Shown piece after piece: positions 23,538 to 42,014 of a DNA stretch of 64,000 bases (the stretch's first letter is position 1; every line of letters begins with the position of its first letter). Under the pieces are notes generated by a model, which was not told the origin of the DNA, made no database searches, and saw only the letters and a list, made by a program, of their open reading frames with translations. Made by a program: the position numbers and the translations under genes. This DNA comes from Streptomyces graminofaciens (lineage in GTDB: Bacteria; Actinomycetota; Actinomycetes; Streptomycetales; Streptomycetaceae): the NCBI RefSeq assembly GCF_030294945.1, contig NZ_AP018448.1, positions 7,408,001 to 7,472,000 on the forward strand, in the 5' to 3' direction.

Positions 23538-24845
23538 CTACTTGGTCGTTTCCTGTTCGTCGCGTCCCCAGACGGCCATCCCGCCGATGAGGACGAGCAC
23601 GAGGCCCACCGCCGCGCCCCAGAACAGGAAGCGCGGGCCGGCGGAGGCGATGAGGACGCCGCCGAGGGCCACGCCGATCGGCTCCACGCCGAACGACAGC
23701 GTGCGGAAGGCGCTGTTGACGCGGCCCTGGAGGGCGTCCGGGGTGGCGGAGAGCCGGTAGGTGACCAGGGACACCGCGAAGACCGGCCAGAGGAGGTTGG
23801 TGATCAGCAAGCCCGCCGTGAGCATGTAGATCGACGAGGCGCTCGCCATCATGGCGGCCGCGGCCGCCCACAGGAACACCGAGCCGAGGGTCAGTCCACG
23901 CAGCCCGACGTGGTCGCGCAGCCAGGAGGCCGCCAGCGCGCTGAGCACCGTGCCGAGACCGACGACGGCCAGGATCAGGCCGATCACCCCGGCGTTGACG
24001 TCCAGCTCGTCGGTGGCCAGGACGATGGTGGCCAGGTTCAACGGCGCCTGGAGGAAGTTGATCAGCGTGACCATGATCATGAGCAGCCGGAGCAGGCGCT
24101 GACGCCAGAGGAAGGACATGCCTTCCTTGAGGTCGGCCATGATCGAGCCGTCCTCCTTGGGTGTCCGCTCGTCCTGGAAGCCACTGCGGACGAACAGCAG
24201 GGACACCCCTGAGAACAGATACGTCACCGCGTCAACCGCGTAGCCGTAGACCGCGCCGAGGGTGGAGTTGCGGGCCAGCCCGATCAGCACGCCGGAGAGC
24301 GCGGATCCGCCCACGCCGGCGGCGGAGTCGCCGATCTCGTTGAGGGCGTTGGCGGACGCCAGCTGATCGTCGGTGACCAGCTTGGGGAGGGCGGACAGGT
24401 GCGCGATGTTGGAGAAGACGTGCCCGATGCCCTCGAGGAACGCCACCACCGCCAGGTGCAGGACGGTCAGGCTGTCCATGGCGTAGGCGAGCGGCACGGT
24501 CGCCAGCACCAGGAAGCGGCCCAAGTCGGCGACGATCATCACCCTGCGGCGGTCCCACCGGTCGACGAGAACGCCGGCCAGCAGGGTCAGCAGCAGATAG
24601 GGGGCGAGCCGGGCCGCTCCGACGAGACCGGCCAGCGCGGGCGAGCCCGAGATGCCGAGCGCGAGAATCGGCACGGCCAGGTTGGACAGCGAGGTCCCCA
24701 CCGACGAGACGGTGAAGCCGCTCCACAGGAGCATGAAGTCCCGGTTGGTCAGCACGCCGCGCCAACGGCCCTTCGCCGCCCCGGAGGCCTCCGGTGCCGG
24801 GCCGTCCTCCTGAGCGGGGGAGGACGCGGTTCCTTCAGTTGTCAT
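23538..24845 (-). CDS. MFS transporter (MFS_3/DHA3 type), probable product exporter
   Basis: A 435-residue protein with about twelve membrane helices. The N-terminal half carries the family loop motif (LLAGVLVDRWDRRRVM, between helices 2 and 3), and the layout matches the macrolide-efflux/enterobactin-exporter-like MFS_3 group. A hydrophilic N-terminus of about 28 residues precedes helix 1. It lies 52 bases downstream of the aminotransferase in the leftward unit, so it is probably the exporter and a self-resistance factor for the cluster's product. A hairpin terminator follows its stop. Confidence 0.9.
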   Translation of the reverse strand: MTTEGTASSPAQEDGPAPEASGAAKGRWRGVLTNRDFMLLWSGFTVSSVGTSLSNLAVPILALGISGSPALAGLVGAARLAPYLLLTLLAGVLVDRWDRRRVMIVADLGRFLVLATVPLAYAMDSLTVLHLAVVAFLEGIGHVFSNIAHLSALPKLVTDDQLASANALNEIGDSAAGVGGSALSGVLIGLARNSTLGAVYGYAVDAVTYLFSGVSLLFVRSGFQDERTPKEDGSIMADLKEGMSFLWRQRLLRLLMIMVTLINFLQAPLNLATIVLATDELDVNAGVIGLILAVVGLGTVLSALAASWLRDHVGLRGLTLGSVFLWAAAAAMMASASSIYMLTAGLLITNLLWPVFAVSLVTYRLSATPDALQGRVNSAFRTLSFGVEPIGVALGGVLIASAGPRFLFWGAAVGLVLVLIGGMAVWGRDEQETTK

Positions 24846-24897: not shown

Positions 24898-26310
24898 TCA
24901 GCTGTACTTCCCCAGGAATGAGGCCAGTCCTTCGACCTGACGCTCGAAATCCGGGCGCTCGGTGGCGCAGCTGACCCGCAGCCAGCCGAACCCGCCGGGT
25001 GTCTTGGCCTCCGCGAGACCCGTGTCGCCCGTGAAACAGGCGAGCGGGAAGCAAGCCACCTGCGCCTCGTCGTACAGGCTGCGCCCGAAGACCGCGGGGT
25101 CGGGGTCCGGCAGGGGCACGCGGAGGAGGTGGTTGAACCCCGCCGCCATGGGCGTGGTGACGGCGTTCCACGGGGCCAGGGCGTCCTCGACCAGCCGCCG
25201 GTTGTCGAAGATCAGCTGGTACATGTCGTGCACCTCGTCGGCGTACTCGTCCAGCTGGGACGTGTCGCTCACGGCCAGGAGCGCGCGCGACTCCTCGTTG
25301 AGGTGCCCGAAGCGCTGCCACAGGGTGTCCGAGATCCCGGTGACGCCATGTCTGCGCCGCTGCAGGTACCCGGAGAAGGCCAGGTCGCGGGCGATGCCGA
25401 GGACCGCCACCAGGGGCGGGCAGCCGCCGAAGCGCCGGTTCTCTATGAAGGTGATGAAATCCGCGTGGCCGAGGACATAGCCGAATCTGAGGCCGCTCAC
25501 CGCGCGCCTTTTGGCAAGGCTGTCCACGACGAGAGTCCGGGCCCAATGGTCATGGCGGTCCAGCGCGGCTCCGTAATTCAATGTGCGGATTTCCTCATGG
25601 GCCGCGAAATCGGTACTGATCTTGTCCAGGACGAGTTGGACACCGCGTCTTTCGAGAATACCGATGATCTCGTCGAACTCCGCCTCGGTGTGTTGCTCGC
25701 CCGATGGGTTGTTCGGCTCGGTGAGGAGTAGTGCGGTGGCTCCGGTGGATTCCAGCGCGGCGTCGATCTCGGCGGGATCGGGAAGGAAACGCCCTTCGCT
25801 TCCGGAAAATACTTCGTGGAATCTCAGTCCGGCGGAAAGGATCGTCTGGTGGACGATGGAGTATTGCGGTCCGGCGACGAGTACGGTTTCCGTATTCCGC
25901 TCCTGGCGGAGAAACTCGAACGCCAGCCGGATTCCCTCCGCCGCGCCCACGGTGAGGGCCGAGTCGATCGGGGCGTCCAGGGGACTTCCCTTGAGGCTCT
26001 CCTCGTAGACGAGCGCGCCGCAGCGCAGTATCGACTCGCCCAGCGGACCGCAGTAGCAGTTGATGTACTTCCAGTCTCGGGCGTCTTCGGCGATGCTGCG
26101 CAGTATCACGGACGGCGGGCGCAGATAGTTGACGCCCGACGAGATCATATGGACCGTGCCGCCCTGGTAGCTCGAGTAGTCGACCGTGTTGTGGTGACGT
26201 TCGAGCTCGTTGATGAGCGACTCTTTCCAGGAGATCTTCTCGATCTGCCGTCCGAGCAGCAGCGCATCGCCATGCGTGGTCGCCATGGTGGGGTCCGTGC
26301 TCCAGTTCAT
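24898..26310 (-). CDS. PLP-dependent aminotransferase class I/II
   Basis: A 470-residue fold-type I PLP enzyme, somewhat longer than the usual 400. Visible features: EPNNPSGE (substrate/PLP Asn loop, about 210), LDKISTDFA (the usual Asp that contacts the pyridine N, changed context), and SLAKRRAVSG holding the probable Schiff-base Lys near residue 278. Codon choice is noticeably less GC-biased than in the neighbours in the first half of the gene, a hint of foreign origin. The reaction is unknown; in this cluster it could supply or remove an amino group on a lysine-derived or 2-oxo acid intermediate. It lies between the DAO-type oxidase and the exporter. Confidence 0.85.
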   Translation of the reverse strand: MNWSTDPTMATTHGDALLLGRQIEKISWKESLINELERHHNTVDYSSYQGGTVHMISSGVNYLRPPSVILRSIAEDARDWKYINCYCGPLGESILRCGALVYEESLKGSPLDAPIDSALTVGAAEGIRLAFEFLRQERNTETVLVAGPQYSIVHQTILSAGLRFHEVFSGSEGRFLPDPAEIDAALESTGATALLLTEPNNPSGEQHTEAEFDEIIGILERRGVQLVLDKISTDFAAHEEIRTLNYGAALDRHDHWARTLVVDSLAKRRAVSGLRFGYVLGHADFITFIENRRFGGCPPLVAVLGIARDLAFSGYLQRRRHGVTGISDTLWQRFGHLNEESRALLAVSDTSQLDEYADEVHDMYQLIFDNRRLVEDALAPWNAVTTPMAAGFNHLLRVPLPDPDPAVFGRSLYDEAQVACFPLACFTGDTGLAEAKTPGGFGWLRVSCATERPDFERQVEGLASFLGKYS

Positions 26311-26365: not shown

Positions 26366-27406
26366 CTACCCGAGTACGAGGTCGGCCGCGGCCTTGGCGA
26401 TCGCGGGTGCCAGCCGGTAGCCGGATCCGTTCGCGGCGCCGGCGAAGACCAGCCGGGGGTCGCCCGCGAGGGGCTGCACCAGCGGGGTCCGGTCCGGGCT
26501 GTAGGCGTCGCAGAACACGCGGCCGGACGAGGCGGCCGAGGCGAGGTCCGGCGCGTACCGCCCGAGCACGGCGCGCGCTTCGGCGATGTCCTGGCCGGTC
26601 AGGCAGGTGGGCAGGGTGTCCGGGGTGACGTCCCACTCCTGGCAGGTGTAGCTGAACAGCCAGTAGCCGCGTTCCCGCAGCGGCAGCAGGAAGGCGTCCT
26701 CGTCGTGGAGGACGACGAGCCGGTCGTCGGGACCGGGGCGGTCGGCGATGTGCAGGGCGACGACCTTCTTCACCCGCGCGCCCAGTGGGCCCACCAGCGG
26801 GGCCCAGGCATCGGCGTGCAGCCAGGGCCCGGGGGCCAGGACGACGCGGCCGGCCCGGATGGACTCACCCGTCGCGAGGCGGAGTTCGATGCCGTCGGGG
26901 GTCTGCTCCAGGCCTTGGACGTGGACGCCCTCGCGGACGACGACCCGGTCGCGCAGCTGGTTCACGAGGTGCGCCGTCAGCGCGGGGACGTCGGCGTAGT
27001 GGCAGCCGTGTCCGTGCCAGACGGAGGTCTCGGCCGGTGCCTTCGCGAAGCGATGGGTGAAATCCGCCGCGGGGGTCAGACCGGCAAGCGGCAGATACTT
27101 CTCCCGCTCGGCCTCGAACGTGTCCGCCGAGGCGATGACGGACATGGGAACGGGAAAGATGGGCAGCTCTGGCTGCTCGGATCTGAGCTGTTCGTAGAAA
27201 CGGTGACTGTAGGCCGTCGACTCGCGGACGCGAGCGTTTCCCCCGCGGGGAAAGTGCAAACCTGCGGATCTCCGGCTGGCGCCACCGGCCACCTCCGCCC
27301 GGTCGAGCAGGGCGATCGATGCCGATGGGGCGCGGGCGGCGATTTCCCGGGCGGTCATGCCGCCGATGATTCCCGCACCTAATACCGCGATGTCGACGCG
27401 TATCAT
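26366..27406 (-). CDS. FAD-dependent amine/amino-acid oxidase, DAO family
   Basis: A 346-residue DAO-fold flavoprotein: the N-terminal dinucleotide motif (VLGAGIIGGMTA, residues 8-19), the GG..RRSAGLHF segment that follows the FAD site, and the C-terminal FAD-contact FAGAANGSGYRLAPA. In s56-p1-type pathways a DAO enzyme (Spb39) oxidatively cleaves the lysyl-hydrazine intermediate to free hydrazinoacetate, and I propose the same role here. It is first in the leftward unit, starting opposite the oxygenase gene. Codon 9 is TTA (27380-27382), rare in Streptomyces, so translation may depend on bldA. Confidence 0.88.
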   Translation of the reverse strand: MIRVDIAVLGAGIIGGMTAREIAARAPSASIALLDRAEVAGGASRRSAGLHFPRGGNARVRESTAYSHRFYEQLRSEQPELPIFPVPMSVIASADTFEAEREKYLPLAGLTPAADFTHRFAKAPAETSVWHGHGCHYADVPALTAHLVNQLRDRVVVREGVHVQGLEQTPDGIELRLATGESIRAGRVVLAPGPWLHADAWAPLVGPLGARVKKVVALHIADRPGPDDRLVVLHDEDAFLLPLRERGYWLFSYTCQEWDVTPDTLPTCLTGQDIAEARAVLGRYAPDLASAASSGRVFCDAYSPDRTPLVQPLAGDPRLVFAGAANGSGYRLAPAIAKAAADLVLG

Positions 27407-27922: not shown

Positions 27923-29068
27923 ATGCGTGGAACGTTGGTCAACCCGGTCATCGCCGACAGAAACCTTCGTTGGACGGTCTGCGACTGGGACTACTCCGGA
28001 CTCGACGAGGACCTGGTGTGGCAGGCGGGTCTGGCGGCCGGCGCGGCACAGACGTCCGGCCGGTTCACCGACGCCCTCAAGCTTCTGGTCGACGGCGAGT
28101 TCGTCAAGGATCCGAAGGCCTGGCCGGGAGGTCTCGGCTCGCCGGAAACGCCATGGGAGTGGCTCGACCGTGCCGTACGGTCCACCGAGGGCGGCGCGGA
28201 CGCCGTGCTCTACTACGCCCGGGGCCTTCAGGAGTACCACCGGGGTCTGTTCGAGGCACTGCTCGGCGGGCTGGCTCCGCTCCTCACCCGGATCGGGCTG
28301 CCCTGCGGCTACATAGAGTCCGAGCTTTTCCTCGGCCGGTACGCGGCCACCCCCGGTGGCATCCACCGGGAGGGGTGCACGAACCTGCACATGGTCCTCC
28401 AGGGCAAGAAGGTCATGCACCTGTGGGACAGCAACGACTGGATCCCGGCCGGCACGGATATCCGCGCCGACGTCGACCCGCTCGGCAACGTCGAGGAGGA
28501 GTACCTCCCCGACCTGCGCTTCAGCGAGGTCGAGCACCTCACCACCACGACCCTGCGGCCGGGCCCGGGCCAGGCGATGTTCTGGCGCAGCGGCATCTGG
28601 CACGTGGGCGACACCCCCGAGCCCTCGCTCTCGGTCAACGTGGCCATGTACACCGGCAGCTTCGACAACCCCCGGCCGTGGATCGACGTGCCCGTCGGCG
28701 CGGACGGGCAGCTGCCCGCCGAGTGGCTCGCCGAGTACCGGGACTTCGCCCGGATCGCCGACTCCGACGAGGAGGCGCTGGCCCTCGCCTCATCCATCGG
28801 CATGCGCGGCATCGCCACGCGGAACCCGCTGCCCGACGCCGCACCCGCCGCCGTCCGCCGACGCACCCCCGCACCCCTGCTGTGGGTCCGCAGCGGCGAG
28901 GACGCGCTGGTCGCGACGCACGGCGCGGTCGAGCGGTTCCCCGCCGCCACCGCGGACTGGGTGGCCGAGCTTGCGGCCCGCGGTACCGACGAGGAACTGG
29001 CCGTCACCCCGGCGACCAGGGACCTGGCCCGCTGGCTGGAGCGCCACTCGCTGGTCGACGGCTCCTGA
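27923..29068 (+). CDS. Cupin/JmjC-type Fe(II)/2-oxoglutarate oxygenase
   Basis: A 381-residue protein; ATG at 27923 chosen for the GGGAGG eight bases upstream. The central region holds a JmjC/cupin_8-like core: Gly-His148-x-Glu150 (GGIHREGCTNLHM) and a second His227 (WRSGIWHVGDT), forming the HxE...H iron triad, with LHMVLQGKKVMHLWD as the strand after the first His. The C-terminal 110 residues are a separate helical part. Expected reaction: oxygen- and 2-oxoglutarate-dependent hydroxylation. In a negamycin-like pathway the C5 hydroxyl of beta-lysine would need such an enzyme. First gene of the rightward unit. Confidence 0.8.
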   Translation: MRGTLVNPVIADRNLRWTVCDWDYSGLDEDLVWQAGLAAGAAQTSGRFTDALKLLVDGEFVKDPKAWPGGLGSPETPWEWLDRAVRSTEGGADAVLYYARGLQEYHRGLFEALLGGLAPLLTRIGLPCGYIESELFLGRYAATPGGIHREGCTNLHMVLQGKKVMHLWDSNDWIPAGTDIRADVDPLGNVEEEYLPDLRFSEVEHLTTTTLRPGPGQAMFWRSGIWHVGDTPEPSLSVNVAMYTGSFDNPRPWIDVPVGADGQLPAEWLAEYRDFARIADSDEEALALASSIGMRGIATRNPLPDAAPAAVRRRTPAPLLWVRSGEDALVATHGAVERFPAATADWVAELAARGTDEELAVTPATRDLARWLERHSLVDGS

Positions 29069-29177
29069 CCCCCGTCGCCGCCGGCGCCGGTTCGGCCATG
29101 TGCGCCGGATCAGCCCGCGGCGTCCGGTGCCGTGCGTCGCACGGCGGAGGGCTGCCCTCGTACGGGGGTACCCGGAT

Positions 29178-29422: not shown

Positions 29423-30154
29423 ATGACCGAGTCCGAGCAGGACTGGACCGAACAGGACTCCGCCGACTTCATCGCGTACGGGAAGTACTTCGTCCCGGAC
29501 CGGGAGGTCCAGGCCGACGTCGTGACCTCGGTCGTCCCCCGGCCACCGGCCGGGGCCCGGATCCTCGACCTGTGTTGCGGCCAGGGCCGGCTGAGCGAGG
29601 CGTTGCTGCGGGCCTTCCCCGAGGCGCACGTCACCGGCCTCGACATCAGCAAGACCATGCTGAGCAGTGCCGAGCAGGAACTCGCCGGGTTCGGCGACCG
29701 CTTCCGCACCGAGCAGTTCGACCTCGGTGCCGCCGACTGGCGCGTACGGGACGAGGCTCCGTGGGCGGTGGTCTCCTCCCTCGCCGTGCACCACCTCGAC
29801 GCCGAGGGCAAGCAGCGCCTGTTCGCCGACACGCACCGCATGCTGCGGCCGGGCGGCGCCCTCGTGCTGGCCGACCTGATCGACCCCACCGGCCCGCTCG
29901 GCGTGGAACTCGCCCGGCGGATGTGGGACGAGTCGGTGCGCCGGCAGAGCGAGGCGGCGGGCGCCCCCGAGGCGTACGAGAAGTTCCACGAACTGCAGTG
30001 GAGCCACTACCACTACCCGGACCCCCTGGACCGGCCCTCGCCGCTGGGCGACCAGCTCCAGTGGCTGCGTGAGGCCGGGTTCACACAGGTCGACGCGTAC
30101 TGGATGAAGGCCGGCCACGCGATCTTCGGCGGCATCAAGCAGGGAGAGCACTGA
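29423..30154 (+). CDS. Class I SAM-dependent methyltransferase
   Basis: A 243-residue Rossmann-fold methyltransferase. Motif I reads ILDLCCGQGRLS (about residues 47-58), the acidic residue of motif II is in VTGLDISKTML, and a WAVVSSLAVHHLD motif-IV region and RMLRPGGALVLADL motif VI are present, as in small-molecule N-, C- or O-methyltransferases. GAAGGGA is upstream of the ATG. In this cluster it is the best candidate for N-methylation of a hydrazine nitrogen. It is followed within three bases by the ATP-grasp gene, so they are co-transcribed. Confidence 0.88.
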   Translation: MTESEQDWTEQDSADFIAYGKYFVPDREVQADVVTSVVPRPPAGARILDLCCGQGRLSEALLRAFPEAHVTGLDISKTMLSSAEQELAGFGDRFRTEQFDLGAADWRVRDEAPWAVVSSLAVHHLDAEGKQRLFADTHRMLRPGGALVLADLIDPTGPLGVELARRMWDESVRRQSEAAGAPEAYEKFHELQWSHYHYPDPLDRPSPLGDQLQWLREAGFTQVDAYWMKAGHAIFGGIKQGEH

Positions 30155-30157
30155 GCC

Positions 30158-31447
30158 ATGACCGACCGCGCCCACCCCCGGATGTTCTTCGGCAACTTCG
30201 TCAACGAACTGATGGTCACCGTCCCGACAGCGCGCCACGCCAAGGCGCTCGTCGCAGTCTCACCCCGCAAGGTCTGGCTGACCCGCCCCGGCGACGTGGT
30301 GGTCCTCCCGACCCCGCCCGCCGAACCCCTCTGGGAGTACGCCACCGGACTGCTGGGCTTCTCCCGGTCCGACGTCACCGCCGTGGCCGCCCCCACCGAC
30401 GACCTGGTCACCCTCACCGAGGCGGTACGCCGGGCCGGACTCGTCGACCGCCTCAGGGAACTGGTGGCGGGCGCCCCGGGACTGCGGTTCCAGCCCTTCG
30501 CCATGGACCGGCCCGCGCTCGAACTGGCCGCCGAGATCGGTGCGCCCGTCGACGGCTACGACGGGGGCCGGCCCTCGGACGAGACCGTCGAGGCCGTCTA
30601 CCGGATCAACACCAAGCCCGGTTTCCGCGCCGCCGCCGGTGAACTCGGCATCAAGGTCGCGGACGGCCGGGTCGCACAGGACCGCGCCGGACTGCTGGAG
30701 GCGGCCCGGGAGACGGTGACCGAGTACGGCGGGGCGGTGATCAAGCCCGTCCGCGGCTCCAACGGCTACGGGGTGCGCTTCCTGTCGAAGGAGGACCTGA
30801 CCGGCCTGGAAGCCACGGTGGACGCGTATCTGGCCACCGTCGCCGATCAGCCGACGGGCTGGCTCGTGGAACAGCGGCTGGACCTGGCGCGCGTGGTGAC
30901 CGTGGAGATGGAGGCCACCGCCGAGGGCCCGAAGGTGCTGCACGTGGGCGAGATGCGGACCCCGAACGGCAGCTTCAGCGGTCAGGTGACCCCGATCGAG
31001 GAGAACTCGCCGGCCGTGGACAAGCTCGTCGCGGACGGCATGGCCTTCGGCGGCCATCTGCACCGCCTCGGCTACCGCGGCCCCTTCGACATCGACGGCG
31101 GCATCACGACCGACGGACAGCTCTACACGACCGAGAGCAACCTCCGCCGGACCGGTTGCACCTATCTCGATCTGCTGGTCAGGCGCCTGCTGGGCACCGA
31201 GAAGGCCGCCGACGCCGTATGGCTCGCCGACTCCCGGGCCGGCGGTGGCACCCCCGACTTCGCCACCGGCCTCGACCTGGTCCGCAAGGCGGGCCTGGCC
31301 TTCGAACCGGGCGGCGAGCAGGGCGTGGTGCTCACCGCCGACACCCTCGCCTTCGACGGCAAGTGGCGCTACCTGATCCTCGCCGACAGCCACCGAGGGG
31401 TCGAGGAACTGGAGAGCCGCCTGGCCGCCACGCTCCAACTGGTCTGA
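30158..31447 (+). CDS. ATP-grasp ligase with pre-ATP-grasp domain (PGM1-like)
   Basis: A 429-residue protein. It begins with a pre-ATP-grasp segment (MFFGNFVNELMVTVP) characteristic of PGM1-related peptide ligases, then the ATP-grasp fold: GAVIKPVRGSNGYGVRF (Lys and Gly-rich loop, about 192-208) and acidic metal ligands in PFDIDGG and TTESNLRRTG (about 310-332). PGM1 of pheganomycin synthesis joins a non-protein amino acid to a peptide. Here it may form the amide/hydrazide bond or add a protecting residue. No precursor peptide gene is visible. Starts three bases after the methyltransferase stop. Confidence 0.85.
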   Translation: MTDRAHPRMFFGNFVNELMVTVPTARHAKALVAVSPRKVWLTRPGDVVVLPTPPAEPLWEYATGLLGFSRSDVTAVAAPTDDLVTLTEAVRRAGLVDRLRELVAGAPGLRFQPFAMDRPALELAAEIGAPVDGYDGGRPSDETVEAVYRINTKPGFRAAAGELGIKVADGRVAQDRAGLLEAARETVTEYGGAVIKPVRGSNGYGVRFLSKEDLTGLEATVDAYLATVADQPTGWLVEQRLDLARVVTVEMEATAEGPKVLHVGEMRTPNGSFSGQVTPIEENSPAVDKLVADGMAFGGHLHRLGYRGPFDIDGGITTDGQLYTTESNLRRTGCTYLDLLVRRLLGTEKAADAVWLADSRAGGGTPDFATGLDLVRKAGLAFEPGGEQGVVLTADTLAFDGKWRYLILADSHRGVEELESRLAATLQLV

Positions 31448-31452
31448 CCCCG

Positions 31453-32097
31453 ATGCTGACCACCGGAATCGACATCCGCCCCAGCACCACCGACAACGTC
31501 GGCCTGTTCGCCACGGAACCGATCCCGGCCGGCACCGTGGTCTGGCTCCCCTGCGCCAAGTGCCCGACCTGGTCCGCCGGCGAGCTCGACGCGGTGCCCG
31601 CCGACCGGTTCGGGCTGCTGGACAAGTACGGCCATCTGCTGACCGACGGCAGCCTCCTGCTGCCCTGCATGGGCGCGTTCCTCATGAACCACTCCTGCGA
31701 GGCCAATGTGCTCGACACCGGCCTGGACTTCGGTCTCGCCGTCCGGGACATCGCCCCCGGCGACGAGGTGACCTGCGACTACGCCACGTTCACCGAGGAC
31801 GAGGGCTGGTCGATGACCTGCAACTGCGGCCTGCCGGGCTGCCGCGGCGCCATCACCACCGAACAGGGGCACGACCCGGAGCTGCGTGCGCGGCTGACGG
31901 CCCGCATCGACGCCGTACTGCCCCGCGTGGCCGAGGTGGACCAGCCCCTGCACGACGTCGTGTCCTCGGTGAGCCGCGCCTACGCCCGGGTCCGGCAGGG
32001 CGCGACCACCGTGGCACAGGCGGGCACCGGCACCACGGTCTGCTCCCCACCCCGGCCTCGCGCCCATCGCCCCACGGAACACGAGGTTCTGAAGTGA
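31453..32097 (+). CDS. SET-domain protein (putative methyltransferase)
   Basis: A 214-residue protein with the hallmark SET motifs: NHSCEAN at 79-85 (SAM and pseudoknot), GDEVTCDY at 103-110 with the catalytic-type Tyr, and a post-SET cluster CNCGLPGC (123-130) that would bind zinc. SET enzymes usually methylate lysine side-chain amines of proteins. Finding one inside a lysine-based biosynthetic cluster suggests it acts on a lysine-like amine or hydrazine of the small molecule or on a carrier protein. It overlaps the MetRS-like gene (GTGA), showing tight coupling. The last 50 residues look unstructured. Confidence 0.82.
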   Translation: MLTTGIDIRPSTTDNVGLFATEPIPAGTVVWLPCAKCPTWSAGELDAVPADRFGLLDKYGHLLTDGSLLLPCMGAFLMNHSCEANVLDTGLDFGLAVRDIAPGDEVTCDYATFTEDEGWSMTCNCGLPGCRGAITTEQGHDPELRARLTARIDAVLPRVAEVDQPLHDVVSSVSRAYARVRQGATTVAQAGTGTTVCSPPRPRAHRPTEHEVLK

Positions 32098-33749: not shown

Positions 33750-35054
33750 ATGGAAGACCACGACCTCGTGGGGATCGGGATCGGCCCCTCGAACCTGAGC
33801 CTCGCCGCGCTCGCCGAGCCGATACGCGGCATCTCCGCCCGCTTCCTCGACGCCAAACCGGAATTCAGCTGGCACTCCGGAATGATGGTGCCCGACGCGG
33901 AACTCCAGGTGTCCTATCTGAAGGACCTCGTCACCACGGTCGATCCCACGAGCCGGTTCTCCTTCCTCAACTACCTGGCCGAGAGCGGGCGTCTGTTCCG
34001 CGCTCTGGTCGCCAACCGTGACACCTGCTCCCGGCAGGAGTTCGAGCACTACTACTGGTGGGCGGCCGGCCAACTGCCCAGCCTGCGCTGGAAACAGCAG
34101 GTGACCGAGGTCCGGCTGCGCGGCGACCGCCTGGAGGTGCGCACCGACCAGGCCCGCCGCACCACCACGTCACTGGTCCTCGGCAGCGGACGGGTGCCCG
34201 CGCTGCCGGCCTTCGCCGAGCCGTTACGCGGTCCACGCGTGCTGCACAGCGCGGACCTCATGCACGTCCGGCCGCGGACACGGGGCAAGGACGTCCTCGT
34301 GGTCGGCGGCGGCCAGAGCGGCGCCGAGGTCGTCAACCACCTGCTGGCGACGGACACGGAGCTGCCCGACCGGCTCACCTGGATCTCCAGCCGCCCCGGA
34401 TTCCAGCCCCTGGACGACTCGCCGTTCACCAACGAATGGTTCGCACCGCCCTACGTCGACCACTTCCACTCACTGCCCCAGCGGCGCCGCGCCGAGCTGC
34501 TGCGCCACCAGCGCCTGGCCAGCGACGGGATCACAGAGTCCCTGCTGGAGGCCATCTACCGGCGCCTGTACCAGCTGGACTTCGTGGCCGGCGCACCCGT
34601 ACGCCACCGGCTGCTCTCCAGCCGGCGAGTCCTCGCCCTGGACCCCGACGGCGACCGTCTGGTGGCCACCGTCCACGACCAGGACCACGACCGGCAGGAG
34701 GCACACGCGGCGGACATAGTCGTCCTCTGCACCGGCTACCGCCGACAGCTCCCCACGTACCTGGCCCCGCTGTCGGACCGGTTGTCCGGCGAGGACGGTG
34801 AGCCCGAGGTCCGCCGGGACTACTCCCTGCGCTGGGACGGCCCCGCCGGCGTCGGCATCTATGTGCAGAACTTCGCCGAGCCCACCCATGGCGTGGCGGA
34901 CCCCAACCTCAGCCTGGCCGCCTGGCGCAGCGCCCAGATCCTCAACTCCGTGACCGGGCGCAAGGTGTACCGCCTCGACCACGTGACGACCACGGCCGCG
35001 TGGGACCACGACCCCGCACCGGCCGACCACTCACCGACCACCGGGAGCTCTTGA
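33750..35054 (+). CDS. L-lysine/ornithine N-monooxygenase (SidA/IucD family)
   Basis: A 434-residue flavoprotein. FAD motif GIGIGPSNLSLAAL (8-21), NADPH-binding VVGGGQSGAEV (about 188-198) and the C-terminal FAEPTHGVADPNLSL region typical of N-hydroxylating monooxygenases are all present. It oxidises the terminal amine of Lys (or Orn) to the hydroxylamine. Beside a MetRS-like gene and a cupin it matches the first step of hydrazine formation, giving N6-hydroxylysine. No siderophore synthetase is nearby. Codon 159 is TTA (34224-34226), a bldA signature. Its stop overlaps the cupin start (TGATG). Confidence 0.92.
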   Translation: MEDHDLVGIGIGPSNLSLAALAEPIRGISARFLDAKPEFSWHSGMMVPDAELQVSYLKDLVTTVDPTSRFSFLNYLAESGRLFRALVANRDTCSRQEFEHYYWWAAGQLPSLRWKQQVTEVRLRGDRLEVRTDQARRTTTSLVLGSGRVPALPAFAEPLRGPRVLHSADLMHVRPRTRGKDVLVVGGGQSGAEVVNHLLATDTELPDRLTWISSRPGFQPLDDSPFTNEWFAPPYVDHFHSLPQRRRAELLRHQRLASDGITESLLEAIYRRLYQLDFVAGAPVRHRLLSSRRVLALDPDGDRLVATVHDQDHDRQEAHAADIVVLCTGYRRQLPTYLAPLSDRLSGEDGEPEVRRDYSLRWDGPAGVGIYVQNFAEPTHGVADPNLSLAAWRSAQILNSVTGRKVYRLDHVTTTAAWDHDPAPADHSPTTGSS

Positions 35055-35392
35055 TGCCCCAGCCCATCAGGGCGGCCTTCGGTCGTCCGCAGAACCTGCC
35101 CGGCATGGTGGTGGAGGAGATCGCCGCCGACGCCGGCTCGCCACTCTCCCTTCCCTTCGAGGGGTCACGCTTCAGCGTCCCGCCCGGGGCGACCAGCGTG
35201 CGCGACGAGCACGCCGTCGCCGAGATCTGGCTGATCCGCTCCGGCACCGGGACCGTCGTCTCCTCGGACACCAGCACCGAGGTGGGGCCCGGCGACGCCC
35301 TCTACTACCCGCCCTGGGTGCCGCACCAGGTCACCAACACCGGATCCGGCCCGTTGGAGGTCTTCAGCCTCTGGTGGACCGCGGACGCGTAG
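35054..35392 (+). CDS. Stand-alone cupin (probable hydrazine-synthetase subunit)
   Basis: A 112-residue single-domain cupin_2 protein. Metal-binding-type residues are His53 and Glu57 (DEHAVAEIW) and His91 (WVPHQV), set in the GTGTVV and GPGDALYYPP strands. Its ATG overlaps the N-hydroxylase stop, so the two are made together. In known hydrazine synthetases a cupin domain, fused to a MetRS-like domain, rearranges the O-acylated hydroxylamine to form the N-N bond. I infer that this small protein supplies that activity in trans. Alternatives such as an isomerase cannot be excluded. Confidence 0.8.
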   Translation: MPQPIRAAFGRPQNLPGMVVEEIAADAGSPLSLPFEGSRFSVPPGATSVRDEHAVAEIWLIRSGTGTVVSSDTSTEVGPGDALYYPPWVPHQVTNTGSGPLEVFSLWWTADA

Positions 35393-35459: not shown

Positions 35460-36854
35460 TTGAGTGACGCACCGGTCCAGCCGTACACATACCGTCGCCC
35501 GCTGCTCGGGGAACCCGACTGGCGGCGCTTCCCGGGATGGCGGCACGTCACCCAGGCCGAATGGGAGTCGGAGCAGTGGCAGCGCCTGAACAGCGTCAGG
35601 AACGCCCGCCAGTTACGGGCCGTCCTCGGCGATCTGGTCGGTGAGACCTTCTACGCCGACCTGGCGCGCGACCGCGCCGAGCGCGCGACGATGTCGCTGC
35701 TCGTTCCGCCGCAGATCCTCAACACGATGGCGAGCGGGGAGCCGGTCGCGGGGGCCGGCAGCCTCACCGACGCCTTCTACTCGGACCCGGTACGCCGCTA
35801 CATCCTGCCCGTCTTCTCCGACCGGCGTGCCGACTGGCCGTCCCATCCACGGGCGACCCGGGACGCACTGCACGAGCAGGAGATGTGGACCGTCGAGGGG
35901 CTGACCCACCGTTACCCCACGAAGGTGCTGGCCGAGGTCGTCCCCACCTGTCCGCAGTACTGCGGACACTGCACCCGGATGGACCTCGTCGGGCAGAACA
36001 CGCCCCAGGTCACCAAGACGAAGTTCACCATCAAGCCGACGGACCGGCTGGCCGCCATCCTGGCCTATCTGCGCGCCCACCCCGAGGTCCGCGACGTCGT
36101 CGTCTCCGGCGGTGACGTGGCGAACGTCCCCTGGCGCCGGCTGGAGGCGTTCACCGCGCAGTTGCTGGACATCGACAGCATCCGCGACATCCGGCTGGCC
36201 TCCAAGGCGCTCGTCACCCTTCCCCAGTACTGGCTGTCGAGCGAGGTCCTCTCCGGGATGGAGCGCCTGGCGAAGGTCGCCCGCGACCGGGATGTGCACA
36301 TCGCCGTGCACACCCATGCCAACTCCGCCCGGTCGGTCACCCCGCTGGCCGCACGGGCGGCGCGCGCGGTACTCGGCACGGGCATCCGGGACGTACGCAA
36401 CCAGGGCGTCCTGATGCACGGCGTCAACGACTCGGCGGAGCAACTGCTCGACCTGTGCTTCGCCCTGGTCGACGGCGCCGGGATCACGCCGTACTACTTC
36501 TACCTCTGCGACATGATCCCGTTCAGTGAGCACTGGCGGATCCCGCTGTCCCGGGCACAGCGGCTCCAGGACGAGATCATGGGATATCTCCCCGGGTTCG
36601 CGACGCCGAGGATCGTCTGCGACGTCCCCTACGTCGGAAAGCGCTGGGTGCATCAGACGGTCGAGTACGACCGGACGCGCGGCATCTCGTACTGGGACAA
36701 GAACTACCGAACTCCTCTGGAAGCGGACGACACGGACGCGTTGGCGCGTCGACACGAGTACCTGGACCCGATCCACACATTGCCGGAGGAAGGCCAGGAA
36801 TGGTGGCGCAGGGAAGCCCTTCAGGGGGCGGGCGGCCCGTCGCACGAGGGATGA
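35460..36854 (+). CDS. Lysine 2,3-aminomutase-like radical SAM/PLP enzyme (KamA family)
   Basis: A 464-residue protein with the radical SAM [4Fe-4S] motif C164-xxx-C168-xx-C171 (CPQYCGHC) and a C-terminal region where a Lys in DVPYVGKRW takes the place of the PLP-binding Lys of the usual PGGGGK motif. TTG start, preceded by GGAAGGAG at nine bases. Lysine 2,3-aminomutases make beta-lysine, the core of negamycin, streptothricin and viomycin-type antibiotics. The changed PLP motif means that another amino acid (for example arginine or a lysine derivative) is possible. Codon 52 is TTA (35613-35615). Overlaps the next gene by four bases. Confidence 0.85.
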   Translation: MSDAPVQPYTYRRPLLGEPDWRRFPGWRHVTQAEWESEQWQRLNSVRNARQLRAVLGDLVGETFYADLARDRAERATMSLLVPPQILNTMASGEPVAGAGSLTDAFYSDPVRRYILPVFSDRRADWPSHPRATRDALHEQEMWTVEGLTHRYPTKVLAEVVPTCPQYCGHCTRMDLVGQNTPQVTKTKFTIKPTDRLAAILAYLRAHPEVRDVVVSGGDVANVPWRRLEAFTAQLLDIDSIRDIRLASKALVTLPQYWLSSEVLSGMERLAKVARDRDVHIAVHTHANSARSVTPLAARAARAVLGTGIRDVRNQGVLMHGVNDSAEQLLDLCFALVDGAGITPYYFYLCDMIPFSEHWRIPLSRAQRLQDEIMGYLPGFATPRIVCDVPYVGKRWVHQTVEYDRTRGISYWDKNYRTPLEADDTDALARRHEYLDPIHTLPEEGQEWWRREALQGAGGPSHEG

Positions 36855-37795
36855 CCATGGAAATAGTCGAACAACACGACCTGCGTATCGCCGTACTCGA
36901 CGCCCGGGAGGCCGAGAGCGGAGACACCCTGCCGGACGAGCCCGGCATCGACATGGTGCGGATCGTCGATCCCACCCCGCAACTGTGCGCCGAACTGGCC
37001 CCGAGGGGCTTCCTGTTCAAGCCCCAGTGGCTCTTCTGGTCGCGCCCGGTGCACCCCACCGTCGAGGCCTACCTGGACACGCTCGGCGCCCGCACGCGCA
37101 AGCACACCCGCCAGGCGCTGCGGAAGACCGCGCAGGGGCACCGGCTGGAGGTCGAGACGCCGATCGACCCGGCACGCCTCGACGTCTGGTACCGCCTGTA
37201 CGAGCGCCATATCGCCTCCCTCCCGAGGGGCACCCTGTACGCCGCCGAGGACCTGGCCGACTTCCGCGCCCACCCCGACCGGGTGGTGGGCCTCTACCTG
37301 TACGACGGCGACCGGATGGCCGCGGGGCTGATCTGTCTGAAGGTGCCGCGCAACGACATGCTGCGCATCACCTACTTCGCCGCCGACCAGGAGCGTCCCG
37401 ACCCGGGCATCACGCCGTACATGTACGTCCAGGCGGGCGTCGTCGCGGCCGAACTCGGTTACGGGAAGCTCTCCGCCGGCGCCGACCCGAACTTCTACGG
37501 CCATGACGTCGCCACCGGTCTGTACCGGCTGAAGAAGAGGCTCGGTTTCCGGGCCGACCCCCTGTGGCGTTTCGAGGCGGACGACCCGCCCGTGCTGGAA
37601 CGGGTGGTGTCCCTGGCGCGCTGTGAGGACCCGTCCTTCTGCGTCAGCTACAGCGGCTTCGACCCGACGGAATCCACCCTGGTCGGAAATGTCTTCTCGG
37701 CGCGCCCCGACATCGACACGACGCACTTCGGAGCACCTATGTTCTCTTCGGTCGAGGCCCGTCCCGTGACCGAGCGCGAGGTGGAGTTCCTGTGA
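36851..37795 (+). CDS. BioF2/FemX-like acyltransferase (GNAT superfamily)
   Basis: A 314-residue protein of the GNAT-fold group that includes BioF2-type and FemX-like enzymes. The conserved basic stretch RTRKHTRQALRK (about 80-91), the middle LYLYDGDRMAAGLI strand and GITPYMYVQAGVVAAELGY (expected acyl-CoA or tRNA-binding helix) support this. Such proteins use acyl-CoA or aminoacyl-tRNA as donors. In this cluster it may aminoacylate or acylate the product, for assembly or self-protection (leucyl-negamycin-type conjugates are known compounds). Overlaps both neighbours (ATGA before, GTGA after). Confidence 0.75.
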   Translation: MTMEIVEQHDLRIAVLDAREAESGDTLPDEPGIDMVRIVDPTPQLCAELAPRGFLFKPQWLFWSRPVHPTVEAYLDTLGARTRKHTRQALRKTAQGHRLEVETPIDPARLDVWYRLYERHIASLPRGTLYAAEDLADFRAHPDRVVGLYLYDGDRMAAGLICLKVPRNDMLRITYFAADQERPDPGITPYMYVQAGVVAAELGYGKLSAGADPNFYGHDVATGLYRLKKRLGFRADPLWRFEADDPPVLERVVSLARCEDPSFCVSYSGFDPTESTLVGNVFSARPDIDTTHFGAPMFSSVEARPVTEREVEFL

Positions 37796-39063
37796 CACGC
37801 AGACTGCTGCTACTGGACTGGGACGAGCGCTACCGCTCCTATGTGCTGGAGGCGAGCCGTGCGCTCGGCCTGACTGTGCACCTGGTGCTGCGGGAGCCGC
37901 TCGACCCGCTGCCCGAGGGCGTGGACCGCGTCCATGTGCTGCCCGGCCTCTACGACGACCCCGTGCTGTGGGTCTCCGACCTCGCCCGGTACGCCCGCGA
38001 GCACGACATCGCCGGAGTCCTCACCCACGAGGACGAACTCGTCGAGCTCAGCGCCGCGTTGAGCGAGGAGCTGGGCCTGCCCGGCGCCTCCCTGGCCGCC
38101 GTGCACTCCTGCATGGACAAGGGCATCACCCGCGAACTCCTCACCGCCGCCGGGGTACCCGGACCGCGGCACCGGATCGCGACCTCCCTGGAGGAGGCGC
38201 GGGCGGCGCTGGCCGAACTGACGCTGCCCGTGGTCCTCAAGCCGGTGGCCGCCTCCGGTGGCCAAGGGGTGACGAAGCTGTCGGACGCCGCCGCACTGCC
38301 GCAGGCCTGGCAGTGGGCGAGCGAGCCGTACAGCTATCTGCCGTCGGCCTACCACCACGTGATCATCGAGGAGTTCCTGGAGGGGCCCCTGGTGAGTGTG
38401 GAGGCGGCGGTGCTGGACGGGGAGGTCCATGTCGTCGCCACCACGGACGGACTGCAGACGATCGAGCCGATCGGTCCGACCCAGTCGCGTTTCGTGTACG
38501 ACGGCCTCCTCGTGCCCTCCCGGCTGCCCGAGGACGACCACCGCGAGCTGAGCCACTGGACACGGGAAGCGATCCGCGCGCTGGACATCCGCACCGGCGT
38601 CGTCCACACCGAGTTCAAGCGCACCCCCGAGGGCGTCCGCGTGGTCGAGGTCAATCCGCGGCTGCCCGGCGTCTACATCCCGGAGTTGGTGCGTCGCGCC
38701 CTGGGCGTCGACCTCGCAGGCGTCGCCCTGCAACTGGCTCTCGGCGAGCGCCCCGACCTCACCGAGCGCCATCGGCGGGGGGCCTGCGTACGGCTGCTGC
38801 TGGCGCAGGACTCCGGCACGGTCGTCGACATCGAGGGACTGGCTCAGGCCGCCGCCGCGCCCCATGTCGTACGGGCGCGCCTGTTCGCCGAACCGGGCGA
38901 CTGGATCGCACCCCCGCAGCAGGGGGAGATCGAGTCGCGCCTCGGCTATGTGCTCACCGAGCACGACGACGGCCCGCATCAGGCGTTGAGCGCGGCCGAG
39001 GAGGGGCTGGACATGCTGGCGGTGCGGGTGACGGGCGCCGGTCTTTCGGGAGCGAGGCGGTGA
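37792..39063 (+). CDS. ATP-grasp carboxylate-amine ligase
   Basis: A 423-residue ATP-grasp enzyme of the carbamoyl-phosphate synthase/D-Ala-D-Ala-ligase type: an N-terminal Rossmann-like domain (to about 110), PVVLKPVAASGGQGVTKL (Lys and Gly-rich loop, about 144-161), the EEFLEGPLVSVE strand (about 191-202) with metal-binding Glu, and VVEVNPRLPG (about 281-290) with the final Glu and Asn that bind Mg2+. It is the second ligase of the cluster and differs from the PGM1-like one. It probably forms an amide, hydrazide or peptide bond between two amino-acid-derived units. GTG start overlapping the previous stop, and its own stop overlaps the fusion gene. Confidence 0.9.
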   Translation: MTRRLLLLDWDERYRSYVLEASRALGLTVHLVLREPLDPLPEGVDRVHVLPGLYDDPVLWVSDLARYAREHDIAGVLTHEDELVELSAALSEELGLPGASLAAVHSCMDKGITRELLTAAGVPGPRHRIATSLEEARAALAELTLPVVLKPVAASGGQGVTKLSDAAALPQAWQWASEPYSYLPSAYHHVIIEEFLEGPLVSVEAAVLDGEVHVVATTDGLQTIEPIGPTQSRFVYDGLLVPSRLPEDDHRELSHWTREAIRALDIRTGVVHTEFKRTPEGVRVVEVNPRLPGVYIPELVRRALGVDLAGVALQLALGERPDLTERHRRGACVRLLLAQDSGTVVDIEGLAQAAAAPHVVRARLFAEPGDWIAPPQQGEIESRLGYVLTEHDDGPHQALSAAEEGLDMLAVRVTGAGLSGARR

Positions 39064-42014
39064 CCACTGGTTCCTTCGCCCCGCTCATCGACGTCGAGGG
39101 CATACGCGAGCGGCATGGGATACCCGGGCTGGCCCTGGCCCTCGTGGACGCGGACGGCGTCGTACGGGCCGAGGGCTTCGGCCGTACGAGTGCGGAGGAG
39201 GACGGCTCGGCGGTCTCGGCCGGGACACTGTTCCGGCTGGGGTCGGTCACCAAGTCGCTGACCGCGACCGCGGTGCTGCGGCTGTGCGAGCAAGGTCTGA
39301 TCGACCTCGACCGTCCGGTCACCGACGTGCTGCCCGCGCTCACCGGCACCGGCTACCCGGACATCGAGCGGATCACGCCACGGATGCTGCTGGGCCACAC
39401 GGCCGGGCTGCCCGACGACTTCTTCCTCACCGGCAGCCGTGACCCGCGGGACCTGGGCCGGGTCGTCCCGGCACTCCTGCGGACGTACACACCTCTCGCG
39501 CCCCCGGGCACGGCGTACTCGTACAGCAATCCCGGCTACGACCTGGCCGGCCTGCTGGCCGCCTCCGTCGCGGGCACCACGTTCCCCGAGGTCCTCGACG
39601 ACACGCTCCTCGGGCCGCTGGGCATGACGCGTACGCTCTTCGACCCGGACGTGGCCGTGACCCACCCGCACGCCCTGTCCCACGACTTCGGCGTCGACGG
39701 GGTGCCGACCGTGGAGCGCGGGCTCATCGACAATGTCGCGCACTACCCGTCCGCTTTCGCGTGGTCGAGCGCGCTCGACCTGGCGCGGTTGGTCGCCATG
39801 GTCCTGAACGAGGGACGGCACGGGGCGCACAGCCTGCTCACGCCCGAAACCGTACGGCTGATGACGACGGCACACGCTTCGCTCCACCTCCCGGACCGGC
39901 GGGCGAGCACACTGGGTCTTCGGCGGTGGCGGTGGCAGGGCCGCACGTTCGTCGGCCACCCCGGCGAGATGTGCGGGTACGGCACCTGGCTGCTCATGCT
40001 TCCCGAGGAGCGCGTCGGGGCGGTGCTGCTGGTGAACGCGCGGCCGCCAGGATTCGATGGCGCGGCCTTGCTGCACCGGGTACTGGAGACGAGCGCCCCG
40101 CCGGCCTCGTCAGCCCCGCCGCGACCGCGCGCCGAGGGCCGGGCGCGGGAGAGCGGCGGGCCCCCACCCGGCTGCGCGGGGGTCTTCGTCGGGCAGGCCA
40201 CCGGGCTGGTACGGCTCACCGTCGAGGACTGTGGACTGGTCGCGGAGATCAACGAACAGCGGGTCGCTCTCAAGGCCACCCCGGACGGCCGGTACGAGGG
40301 AGACCTCGGCGGCGACACCGTGTCCCTGGGCTTCGTGCCGGCCACGGACGGCGATGTGACCTATGTGATGGTCGACGGAGAGCTGTGCCGGCGCTTCGAC
40401 GAACGCCGGCTGGAGCGCCCGGACGCGGCCGACCTGGAGCGTTACACCGGCACGTACACCCGCCTCGACCAGGTCGAGGTCTTCGTCCGGGACGGAGAGC
40501 TGTATCTGTACTCCGAGGAGGACCGCAGCGAGCTGCGGTGCCTGCCGATCACCCGCACGATGTTCGCCTTCCAGGGAGGGGTGTTCGAGTTCATGGTGGA
40601 CGACGCGGGCGACGTCACCGGTATGCGGGCCCGGAACGCCGTGACGCTGAGGAGGACGGGGCCGCCCACGGACGCGCTCGACGTGCCCCCGCCCGCCCCG
40701 GTCGTACCGCCCGCCCCGCCCGCCCAGGTCGTCCTGGACGCCGCCGACCTCCACTCCTCGGTGCACGACCCCGTCCTCACCTCCATGACGCTGCTGAACG
40801 ACATCGCCGGCCGGTATCCCCAGGCCGTCTCCTTCGCGGCCGGGCGCCCCTACGAGGGTTTCTACGACGTCGGCTCGCTGCCCCGGCAACTGGGCGCCTT
40901 CGAGCGGTATCTGGAGAGCGAACTGGGCCTGGGCCCCGAGGAGGTGCGCCGCACCTTCTTCCAGTACGGCCGCACGAAGGGGGTCATCCACCGGCTGATC
41001 GCCCGGCACCTCGAACTCGACGAGCGGATGACCGTCGACCCCGAGTCCCTGGTCGTGACCACCGGCTGCCAGGAGGCCATGGTCCTGGTCCTGCGCGCGC
41101 TGCGCCGCGACGAGCGGGACGTGGTGCTGACCGCCGTACCGGCCTATGTGGGCTTCCTCGGCGCGACCCGGATCGTCGACATGGCCGTACGCGAGGTGCG
41201 GGAGGGGCCGGGCGGTATCGACCTGGACGACCTGGCGGAACAGATCCGCCGCGCCAGGGCCGCGGGCCTGCGGCCACGAGCCTGCTATGTCGTGCCCGAC
41301 TTCGCCAACCCCAGCGGGGTCAGCATGTCCCTGGCGGACCGGCGGCGGCTGCTGGAACTGGCGGAGCGGGAGGACCTGCTGATCCTGGAGGACAACCCGT
41401 ACTCCTTCTTCCACTCGGGGACGGGACGGCTGCCCACCCTCAAGGTCCTCGACCGGACACGGAGGGTGGTCTACTTCGGCTCGTTCGCCAAGACGGCGTT
41501 CGCGGGCGCCCGGGTCGGCTATGTGGTGGCCGACCAGCCGGTCGCGGGGGAGGGACTGTTCGCGGACCAGCTGGCCCGACTGAAGAGCATGCTGACGCTG
41601 AACACCTCGACCGTCGCCCAGGCCGTGATCGGCGGGTACCTCGTCGAGAACGAGTGCAGCCTGGAACGCGCGACGCTGCGAGAGGCGGCCGTCTACCGAA
41701 GGAACCTGCGCGCCGCGCTTGACGGTCTGGAACAACGCCTCGGCGCGGGCACCCCGGCCGGTCCGGTCTCCTGGAACACCCCGGGCGGCGGCATGTTCCT
41801 CGTCCTCACCCTGCCCTTCGCCGCCGACGAGGCGATGCTCGAACTGTCGGCGAGGAAGTTCGGCGTGCTCTGGACCCCGATGCACCACTTCTACGGCGGC
41901 TCCGGCGGCTCCCATCAGATCCGGCTCTCGCTGAGCGTCCTGTCCCCGGAGCAGATTGCGCTCGGCCTGGACCGACTGGCCGCGTTCGTCATCGAGGCGC
42001 CGCGGATTTCGTGA
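39060..42014 (+). CDS. Serine beta-lactamase-fold hydrolase fused to PLP aminotransferase
   Basis: A 984-residue two-enzyme fusion. Residues 1-345 are a class C beta-lactamase/DD-peptidase fold with S62VTK65 (SxxK), Y155-S-N157 (YxN) and a HPG motif near 300 (in place of KTG). Residues 365-530 are a beta-rich linker domain resembling the extra domain of D-aminopeptidase-like enzymes, and 535-555 is Pro-rich. Residues 570-984 are a class I/II aminotransferase of the LysN/2-aminoadipate type, with a SFAKTAFAGARVG Schiff-base Lys near 815. No break or frameshift is seen. The hydrolase half could be a peptide cleaver, esterase or transacylase (as in CapW). I know no identical fusion. Confidence 0.85.
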   Translation: MTTGSFAPLIDVEGIRERHGIPGLALALVDADGVVRAEGFGRTSAEEDGSAVSAGTLFRLGSVTKSLTATAVLRLCEQGLIDLDRPVTDVLPALTGTGYPDIERITPRMLLGHTAGLPDDFFLTGSRDPRDLGRVVPALLRTYTPLAPPGTAYSYSNPGYDLAGLLAASVAGTTFPEVLDDTLLGPLGMTRTLFDPDVAVTHPHALSHDFGVDGVPTVERGLIDNVAHYPSAFAWSSALDLARLVAMVLNEGRHGAHSLLTPETVRLMTTAHASLHLPDRRASTLGLRRWRWQGRTFVGHPGEMCGYGTWLLMLPEERVGAVLLVNARPPGFDGAALLHRVLETSAPPASSAPPRPRAEGRARESGGPPPGCAGVFVGQATGLVRLTVEDCGLVAEINEQRVALKATPDGRYEGDLGGDTVSLGFVPATDGDVTYVMVDGELCRRFDERRLERPDAADLERYTGTYTRLDQVEVFVRDGELYLYSEEDRSELRCLPITRTMFAFQGGVFEFMVDDAGDVTGMRARNAVTLRRTGPPTDALDVPPPAPVVPPAPPAQVVLDAADLHSSVHDPVLTSMTLLNDIAGRYPQAVSFAAGRPYEGFYDVGSLPRQLGAFERYLESELGLGPEEVRRTFFQYGRTKGVIHRLIARHLELDERMTVDPESLVVTTGCQEAMVLVLRALRRDERDVVLTAVPAYVGFLGATRIVDMAVREVREGPGGIDLDDLAEQIRRARAAGLRPRACYVVPDFANPSGVSMSLADRRRLLELAEREDLLILEDNPYSFFHSGTGRLPTLKVLDRTRRVVYFGSFAKTAFAGARVGYVVADQPVAGEGLFADQLARLKSMLTLNTSTVAQAVIGGYLVENECSLERATLREAAVYRRNLRAALDGLEQRLGAGTPAGPVSWNTPGGGMFLVLTLPFAADEAMLELSARKFGVLWTPMHHFYGGSGGSHQIRLSLSVLSPEQIALGLDRLAAFVIEAPRIS

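Follow-up and report, generated by a model that had tools for sequence, protein, structure and literature searches.

N-N bonds are among the hardest for biology to form, and for hydrazinoacetate two unrelated enzyme systems are known. Can the operon for one kind of antibiotic, negamycin, be furnished with either of them? This question is raised by a gene cluster in a 64,000-nucleotide stretch of the Streptomyces graminofaciens genome (G000:C1:7408001-7472000, called the window below; the genome is a single contig of 11.6 Mb). Fourteen genes were assigned to the cluster, which spans positions 23538-42014 of the window and starts after a purA domain match (inside 21227-23443). We hold with good confidence that they form a negamycin-type operon with a lysine-type hydrazine cassette instead of the haem enzyme NegJ, and that the predicted product is a hydroxylated beta-lysyl (methyl)hydrazinoacetate, namely negamycin or a near isomer. 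Possibly, the product is aminoacylated.

An initial annotation of this DNA had proposed a hydrazide antibiotic cluster of negamycin-like logic, free of non-ribosomal peptide synthetase (NRPS) and polyketide synthase (PKS) genes. All of the genes that it listed, i.e., the exporter, DAO oxidase, oxygenase, methyltransferase, two ATP-grasp ligases, methionyl-tRNA synthetase-like (MetRS-like) protein, SidA-family N-hydroxylase, cupin and KamA, were found inside the span, and a Pfam domain scan detected no NRPS or PKS domain among the 14 assigned genes. The list had omitted the SET-domain protein, the pyridoxal phosphate (PLP)-dependent aminotransferase, the FemXAB/GNAT-type protein and the beta-lactamase/aminotransferase fusion. 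The genes of the major facilitator superfamily (MFS) exporter, the PLP enzyme and the DAO oxidase are on the minus strand, and those from the JmjC oxygenase through the fusion are all on the plus strand. Because of this single strand and four 4-base start/stop overlaps, at SET/MetRS, KamA/FemX, FemX/L-amino acid ligase (LAL) and LAL/fusion, the arrangement is operon-like.

The negamycin-type core and the hydrazine cassette

Kitasatospora purpeofusca NRRL B-1817 is named as a negamycin producer in the accessible part of PMC12154649. Its negamycin (neg) cluster, designated L012 here, has the order beta-lactamase, KamA, JmjC, methyltransferase, PreATP-grasp ligase, SET, FemAB/GNAT-type protein, alpha/beta hydrolase, MFS exporter and NegJ. 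A search of 5.8 billion proteins with the window JmjC, in which 7,996 candidates were scored, gave nine proteins at E <= 0.001, counting the query, and a scan of the named genomes with an alignment of the JmjC relatives gave nine loci, with K. purpeofusca NRRL B-1817 among them. The JmjC-methyltransferase-PreATP-grasp-SET block of the window (27923-32097) is colinear with L012, identical in order and strand, and the protein identities are 42%, 45%, 37% and, over 142 residues, 49%, respectively. These four genes were chosen by us, from L012, as the defining core of the neg cluster. The same order and strand were found in five other loci (L013, L107, L016, L072 and L073), and the arrangement is more than chance because it recurs in these and in the negamycin producer. 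When the K. purpeofusca methyltransferase was used as a query against the whole genome of the window, the best match was the window methyltransferase (46%, E 9.7e-59), with the next at 29% (6.8e-14); the window ligase has its sole full-length match within its own genome to itself. The colinearity of the four core genes places the negamycin-like logic proposed at first on stronger ground.

Outside the core, the beta-lactamase part of the fusion is 39% identical to the K. purpeofusca beta-lactamase over 129 residues, and the PF13480 domain is common to the window FemX-like protein and the L012 GNAT gene (52.6 bits in the latter). Orthology of these two PF13480 proteins was considered and dropped, as no BLAST match was obtained and the hhalign probability was 15.5.

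Where the neg cluster relies on NegJ, SET is directly followed in the window by MetRS, SidA and cupin genes, and the DAO gene lies on the opposite strand. All the constituents of a lysine-type cassette, N-hydroxylase, MetRS-like protein, zinc cupin and flavin oxidase, were recognized by family (the DAO by family only), in agreement with the initial assignment. In the alignment, the MetRS-like protein showed LHLGH and KISTS, which we take to be class I synthetase motifs. The cupin retains all four zinc ligands of RHS1 (PDB 5uqp), Asp63, His65, Glu69 and His103; as described in the portion of PMC8664883 available, these include Glu69 as an invariant catalytic residue, and standalone MetRS and cupin proteins can work together. 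The window DAO is 53-57% identical to those of the related loci L074, L075 and L103, 29% to that of L073 and 35% to that of L109. In K. purpeofusca, hydrazinoacetate is attributed to NegJ, a KinJ-family haem enzyme using glycine (PMC12154649, accessible part). The initial description of the cluster as the list of parts of negamycin therefore stands for the core and not for the hydrazine module, since the published negamycin cluster uses NegJ rather than a lysine cassette.

The SidA/MetRS/cupin set might be an unrelated insertion, such as a siderophore fragment, beside a negamycin-type cluster broken after the loss of NegJ, and the genome does carry three other full-length SidA genes, as this would predict. 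We find this highly improbable. MetRS-SidA-cupin is also located behind SET in L073 and behind the ligase in L109, the SET stop overlaps the MetRS start in the window, and no MetRS or cupin match was found in the 1.5 kb flanks of the three other SidA loci. Furthermore, the reading frames are intact in all 14 assigned genes, against a broken cluster. A siderophore role of the SidA protein was rejected from its operon context and from the lack of a MetRS/cupin match at the other SidA loci.

It is also conceivable that hydrazinoacetate is oxidised further here rather than acylated, giving a product like azaserine, N-nitroglycine or triacsin, because the N-hydroxylase/MetRS/cupin/flavin oxidase route to hydrazinoacetate supplies those pathways as well (accessible parts of PMC11705231 and PMC13274452). 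This has only a slight chance in our view: no NRPS or carrier-protein domain is present in the assigned genes, on which ground an azaserine/N-nitroglycine-like product was rejected, and KamA and the PreATP-grasp ligase occur in an order shared with the negamycin producer.

Distribution and exchange of the N-N modules

Matches to the window ligase were found in 33 of 392 genomes of the genus (E <= 1e-30) and 33 of 394 of the family (E <= 1e-50), the own genome counted. Among the 66 ligase-match loci (L041 onward), in which some places are counted twice, one is the window's own and most reach only 1.5 kb past the ligase, 48 had no other core gene, two had KamA only and 16 had the methyltransferase too. 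With JmjC as the query, 20 of 392 genomes of the genus were positive at E <= 1e-3, and in five the match was better than 1e-40; at E <= 1e-20, there were positives among relatives (3 of 199) and across the class (2 of 394 genomes), the own genome being counted each time. As separate observations, L110 (G219:C46:108001-128000) and L111 (G060:C1:228001-248000) carry a negamycin-type KamA (72-76%) and ligase (64-66%) beside an EamA transporter with no match to the methyltransferase, SET or an N-N module, and possibly belong to another beta-lysyl product family. In L014, L015 and L017, JmjC relatives (35-38%) adjoin LAL-type ATP-grasp matches (25-31%) without the methyltransferase-ligase-SET core; these are likely to be other amino acid hydroxylases.

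Eleven loci, i.e., ten core loci and L109, were compared. KamA, the methyltransferase and the ligase are present in all of them, SET in 10 and JmjC in 7. As the N-N module, NegJ was found in five and the lysine cassette in six, and the two were never found together in the retrieved stretches. The five NegJ candidates (L012, L013, L016, L072 and L107) all contain the RM..N.WH pattern, which was used to anchor KinJ R497, M498, N501 and H504, and the equivalents of KinJ H541, R551 and R570 are at the KinJ spacing in each. In L073 (G460, from another family of the class), KamA-JmjC-methyltransferase-ligase-SET is followed by MetRS-SidA-cupin-DAO, so that the order SET-MetRS-SidA-cupin is common to this locus and the window; its KamA is 60% identical to that of K. 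purpeofusca. In L109 (G139, same genus), the beta-lactamase (62%), KamA (73%), methyltransferase (76%) and ligase (76%) resemble those of K. purpeofusca, and downstream of the ligase are a MetRS (58%), SidA (59%), cupin (46%) and DAO (35%) resembling those of the window; SET, JmjC and NegJ all lack a match within its 19 kb. L074, L075 and L103 have the order methyltransferase-ligase-SET-KamA-SidA-DAO-MetRS, and the L074 ligase is identical to P0022 from Streptomyces mashuensis. A strict cupin pattern was found in three of five loci (window, L073 and L074) and a looser one also matches L109; neither matched in L075 or L103. In L074, the pattern is ahead of MetRS in one reading frame. An unusual hydrazine-synthetase-like fusion is P0105 (710 aa, Streptomyces sp. 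NPDC048564), a MetRS-like protein for which GNAT domains are also annotated.

Trees were then compared for the history of core and module. In the concatenated tree of KamA, methyltransferase and ligase from seven loci, L109 nests with L012, L013 and L107 (100/100), away from the NegJ loci L016 and L072, and a constraint uniting the five NegJ loci as one clade was rejected (p-AU 0.0008, approximately unbiased test). The ligase tree of 24 rows, in which 11 of 36 ligase relatives were hand-picked for spread, needs at least two module changes even if the starred branches alone are counted. In the MetRS tree, for which 25 of 120 listed relatives were hand-picked for spread, the proteins of the window, L073 and L109 lie within one supported set of 18 rows, apart from those of L074, L075 and L103; therefore, there are two lineages of the lysine-type module. 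The K. purpeofusca-like core of L109, together with its lysine cassette and the rejected NegJ clade, indicates that negamycin-type operons have exchanged N-N modules. L109 demonstrates this exchange for the K. purpeofusca-type core; for the core lineage of the window itself, it is suggested by the shared gene order and by L073.

Predicted pathway and product

The sequences establish the gene content and order, the families, the active-site residues and the likeness of the core to that of the producer, and give phylogenetic evidence for module exchange on negamycin-type cores. From the families and their context, we infer the following route for the enzymes of this cluster. Lysine would first be hydroxylated on its side-chain nitrogen by SidA. 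The MetRS-like protein would then activate a second amino acid, likely glycine, and join it as an ester to this hydroxylysine, and rearrangement of the ester by the zinc cupin would create the N-N bond. Hydrazinoacetate would be cleaved off by the DAO oxidase and N-methylated by the class I methyltransferase. For the other half, KamA, which matches L-lysine 2,3-aminomutase (2a5h, E 2.9e-37), is predicted to convert lysine to beta-lysine, and the JmjC oxygenase to hydroxylate it. The latter matched no Pfam family; both the double-stranded beta-helix fold and the HxD/E...H metal triad were recognized. The PreATP-grasp ligase would couple both halves into a hydrazide. An aminoacyl cap, as suggested by leucyl-negamycin, may be put on or taken off by the second ATP-grasp protein, the FemX-like protein and the beta-lactamase/aminotransferase fusion.

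Several observations weigh against this reading, and some of them favor a different product. Negamycin has one N-methyl group, which does not explain SET as a second methyltransferase; SET follows the ligase in ten of the eleven loci (window, L012, L013, L016, L072-L075, L103 and L107) despite a separate class I methyltransferase. L109 is the locus without SET. The KamA proteins of the window and K. purpeofusca share only 30% identity and belong to different subfamilies, and no match in the K. purpeofusca cluster was found for the PLP enzyme, for the LAL ligase or for the aminotransferase half of the fusion. NegJ gave no match in the 11.6 Mb genome, with a query whose protein does find the L016 and L072 relatives (45-46%, tblastn); because NegJ was looked for and is absent, the cluster is filed not as a neg cluster but as a variant, which would nevertheless function in the manner of one. 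MetRS is the amino-acid gatekeeper of the hydrazine synthetase (PMC8664883), and its relatives variously use Gly, Ala, Ser, Glu or Tyr (PMC8664883, PMC11705231; accessible parts in each case). As for the trees, L109 is the basis of the exchange test, which directly addresses the K. purpeofusca-type core but not the core lineage of the window. The methyltransferase, SET, KamA and JmjC trees (10, 10, 11 and 15 rows, L109 left out; P0004, a short broken-off relative, was excluded from the JmjC tree) need one module change each and do not show exchange, and in the JmjC tree the loci even separate according to their module (99/97). The branch of L073 is long, and its position in the methyltransferase tree is unsupported (49/3). 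In an unrooted ligase tree of 68 rows, unrelated PreATP-grasp rows are on the side of the window, and the ligase was dropped as sole proof of a common core origin on this account.

The nearest named KamA, 68% identical to that of the window, is in the viomycin-type cluster of Streptomyces cinnamoneus (L011, L070 and L071), at the edge of which a JmjC protein is 48% identical to the window JmjC. Because the window JmjC and KamA are nearest to this cluster, the hydroxyl group may sit elsewhere than in negamycin, which again counts against the product proposed above. The cluster could make a beta-lysine hydrazide other than negamycin, with the hydroxyl at a different carbon, as would be expected of a JmjC acting like the viomycin-type one, and with amino acids added permanently by the second ligase and the FemX-like protein. 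The grouping of both proteins with the viomycin-type locus (97/92 in the JmjC tree) supports this, as do the LAL-type ligase and FemX-like genes overlapping inside the operon. On the other hand, the four-gene order is as in the negamycin producer, and leucyl-negamycin places an aminoacyl cap already within the negamycin family (PMC12797225, accessible part). We regard such a hydrazide as a serious possibility, somewhat short of an even chance. The edge JmjC gene of S. cinnamoneus (L011, 10001-11152, with L070 and L071) is itself a candidate beta-lysine hydroxylase for hydroxylated tuberactinomycins. Some tuberactinomycins contain gamma-hydroxy-beta-lysine, for which our literature search gave no confirmation.

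Returning to the negamycin-type operon with a lysine-type cassette, we think it fairly probable that it is an operon of movable parts: a core of beta-lysine, ligase and methyltransferase functions, behind whose ligase modules of unrelated N-N chemistry, namely NegJ (nitrite-haem), standalone MetRS/cupin and fused cupin-MetRS, were plugged repeatedly. The window operon would be the lysine-plugged version, making negamycin, or its hydroxyl isomer, with no need for nitrite. It is likely that one kind of antibiotic is built by two unrelated N-N chemistries. NegJ and the lysine system seem to be interchangeable within a single antibiotic operon: the lysine system in L109 adjoins core genes 73-76% identical to those of the negamycin producer, where NegJ adjoins the core. 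Plug-in replacement of N-N modules thereby becomes directly testable, and a route to a negamycin-type antibiotic that needs neither nitrite nor ferredoxin is suggested. In addition, methyltransferase-ligase-SET is a compact handle for genome mining of hydrazide antibiotics, including a predicted deoxynegamycin group, and the cross-locus comparison narrows the roles for unassigned core enzymes.

Judged by titles and the opening lines of abstracts, in a coverage without the majority of subscription papers, the Nat Chem Biol 2025 paper on NegJ among them, we found no description of a lysine-type cassette within a cluster of the negamycin type. The accessible part of a preprint (PMC12154649) describes KinJ genes next to genes of the azaserine, triacsin and N-nitroglycine types and considers that KinJ and AzaEFG may be interchangeable. 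The present case is the reverse of that idea, within negamycin-type operons and with a phylogenetic test.

Gene inventory and comparison with known systems

Table 1. Genes assigned to the cluster, with positions in the window
Gene product	Position	Strand	Domain match or remark
MFS exporter	23538..24845	-	PF05977/PF07690
Fold-type I PLP enzyme, aminotransferase class I/II	24898..26310	-	PF00155
DAO-family flavin oxidase, putative Spb39-like hydrazinoacetate release	26366..27406	-	PF01266
JmjC-fold Fe(II)/2-oxoglutarate oxygenase, predicted beta-lysine hydroxylase	27923..29068	+	alternative start 27893
Class I S-adenosylmethionine (SAM) methyltransferase, predicted hydrazine N-methyltransferase	29423..30154	+	PF13649
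PreATP-grasp/PGM1_C ligase, predicted hydrazide (beta-lysyl) ligase	30158..31447	+	PF18604, PF18105
SET-domain protein	31453..32097	+	PF00856
MetRS-like half of hydrazine synthetase	32094..33716	+	PF09334, 264 bits; GTG start overlapping SET stop
SidA-family N-hydroxylase, putatively acting on lysine N6	33750..35054	+	PF13434, 355.6 bits (cut-off 21.3)
Zinc cupin half of hydrazine synthetase	35054..35392	+	RHS1 (5uqp) match, E 1.9e-16
KamA-family radical SAM protein, predicted lysine 2,3-aminomutase, viomycin-type subfamily	35460..36854	+	TTG start
FemXAB/GNAT-type protein, possible aminoacyl transfer	36851..37795	+	PF13480, 22.3 bits (cut-off 22)
Second ATP-grasp ligase, LAL type, possible product aminoacylation	37792..39063	+	PF18603, PF13535
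Class C beta-lactamase/aminotransferase fusion	39060..42014	+	PF00144 212.8 bits, PF00155

The genes of the cluster are listed in Table 1. The best NCBIfam match of the PLP enzyme was GntC, at 87 bits against a cut-off of 415, and its PDB matches were weak. The SVTK and YSN motifs are present in the fusion, and NHSC and the post-SET CxCxxxxC are visible in the alignment of the SET protein. Elsewhere in the window, a DDE_Tnp_4 transposase (10089-11066, plus strand) and, outside the cluster, a protein of 713 aa in which Pfam recognizes a NACHT NTPase domain (13489-15630, minus strand) were observed. An aspartokinase-like amino acid kinase with ACT domains (62377-63657, plus strand), for the first step towards lysine, is about 20 kb from the lysine-consuming cluster and is probably a housekeeping gene.

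Compared with the neg cluster, the window shares the four-gene core, a KamA-family protein, an MFS exporter, a PF13480 transferase and a class C beta-lactamase-type domain, whereas it has SidA/MetRS/cupin/DAO in place of NegJ, an extra LAL ligase, a PLP enzyme and the aminotransferase half of the fusion, and no match to the alpha/beta hydrolase. The deoxy-type relatives L074, L075 and L103 share methyltransferase-ligase-SET-KamA at 63-67% identity together with SidA, DAO and MetRS, but differ in having no JmjC match and a distant MetRS (33-34%). The viomycin/tuberactinomycin-type cluster of S. cinnamoneus is an NRPS peptide cluster, with no match there to the window methyltransferase, ligase, SET or hydrazine genes. 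Finally, the lysine-type hydrazine synthetase pathways (Spb38-40 of s56-p1, Tri26-28, azaserine, NngKLM and RHS1) have the N-hydroxylase, MetRS-like protein, zinc cupin and flavin oxidase as in the window, where, as for RHS1, the cupin is not fused to MetRS. In those pathways the cassette leads to NRPS, PKS or oxidation steps, whereas in the window it would feed a negamycin-type core.
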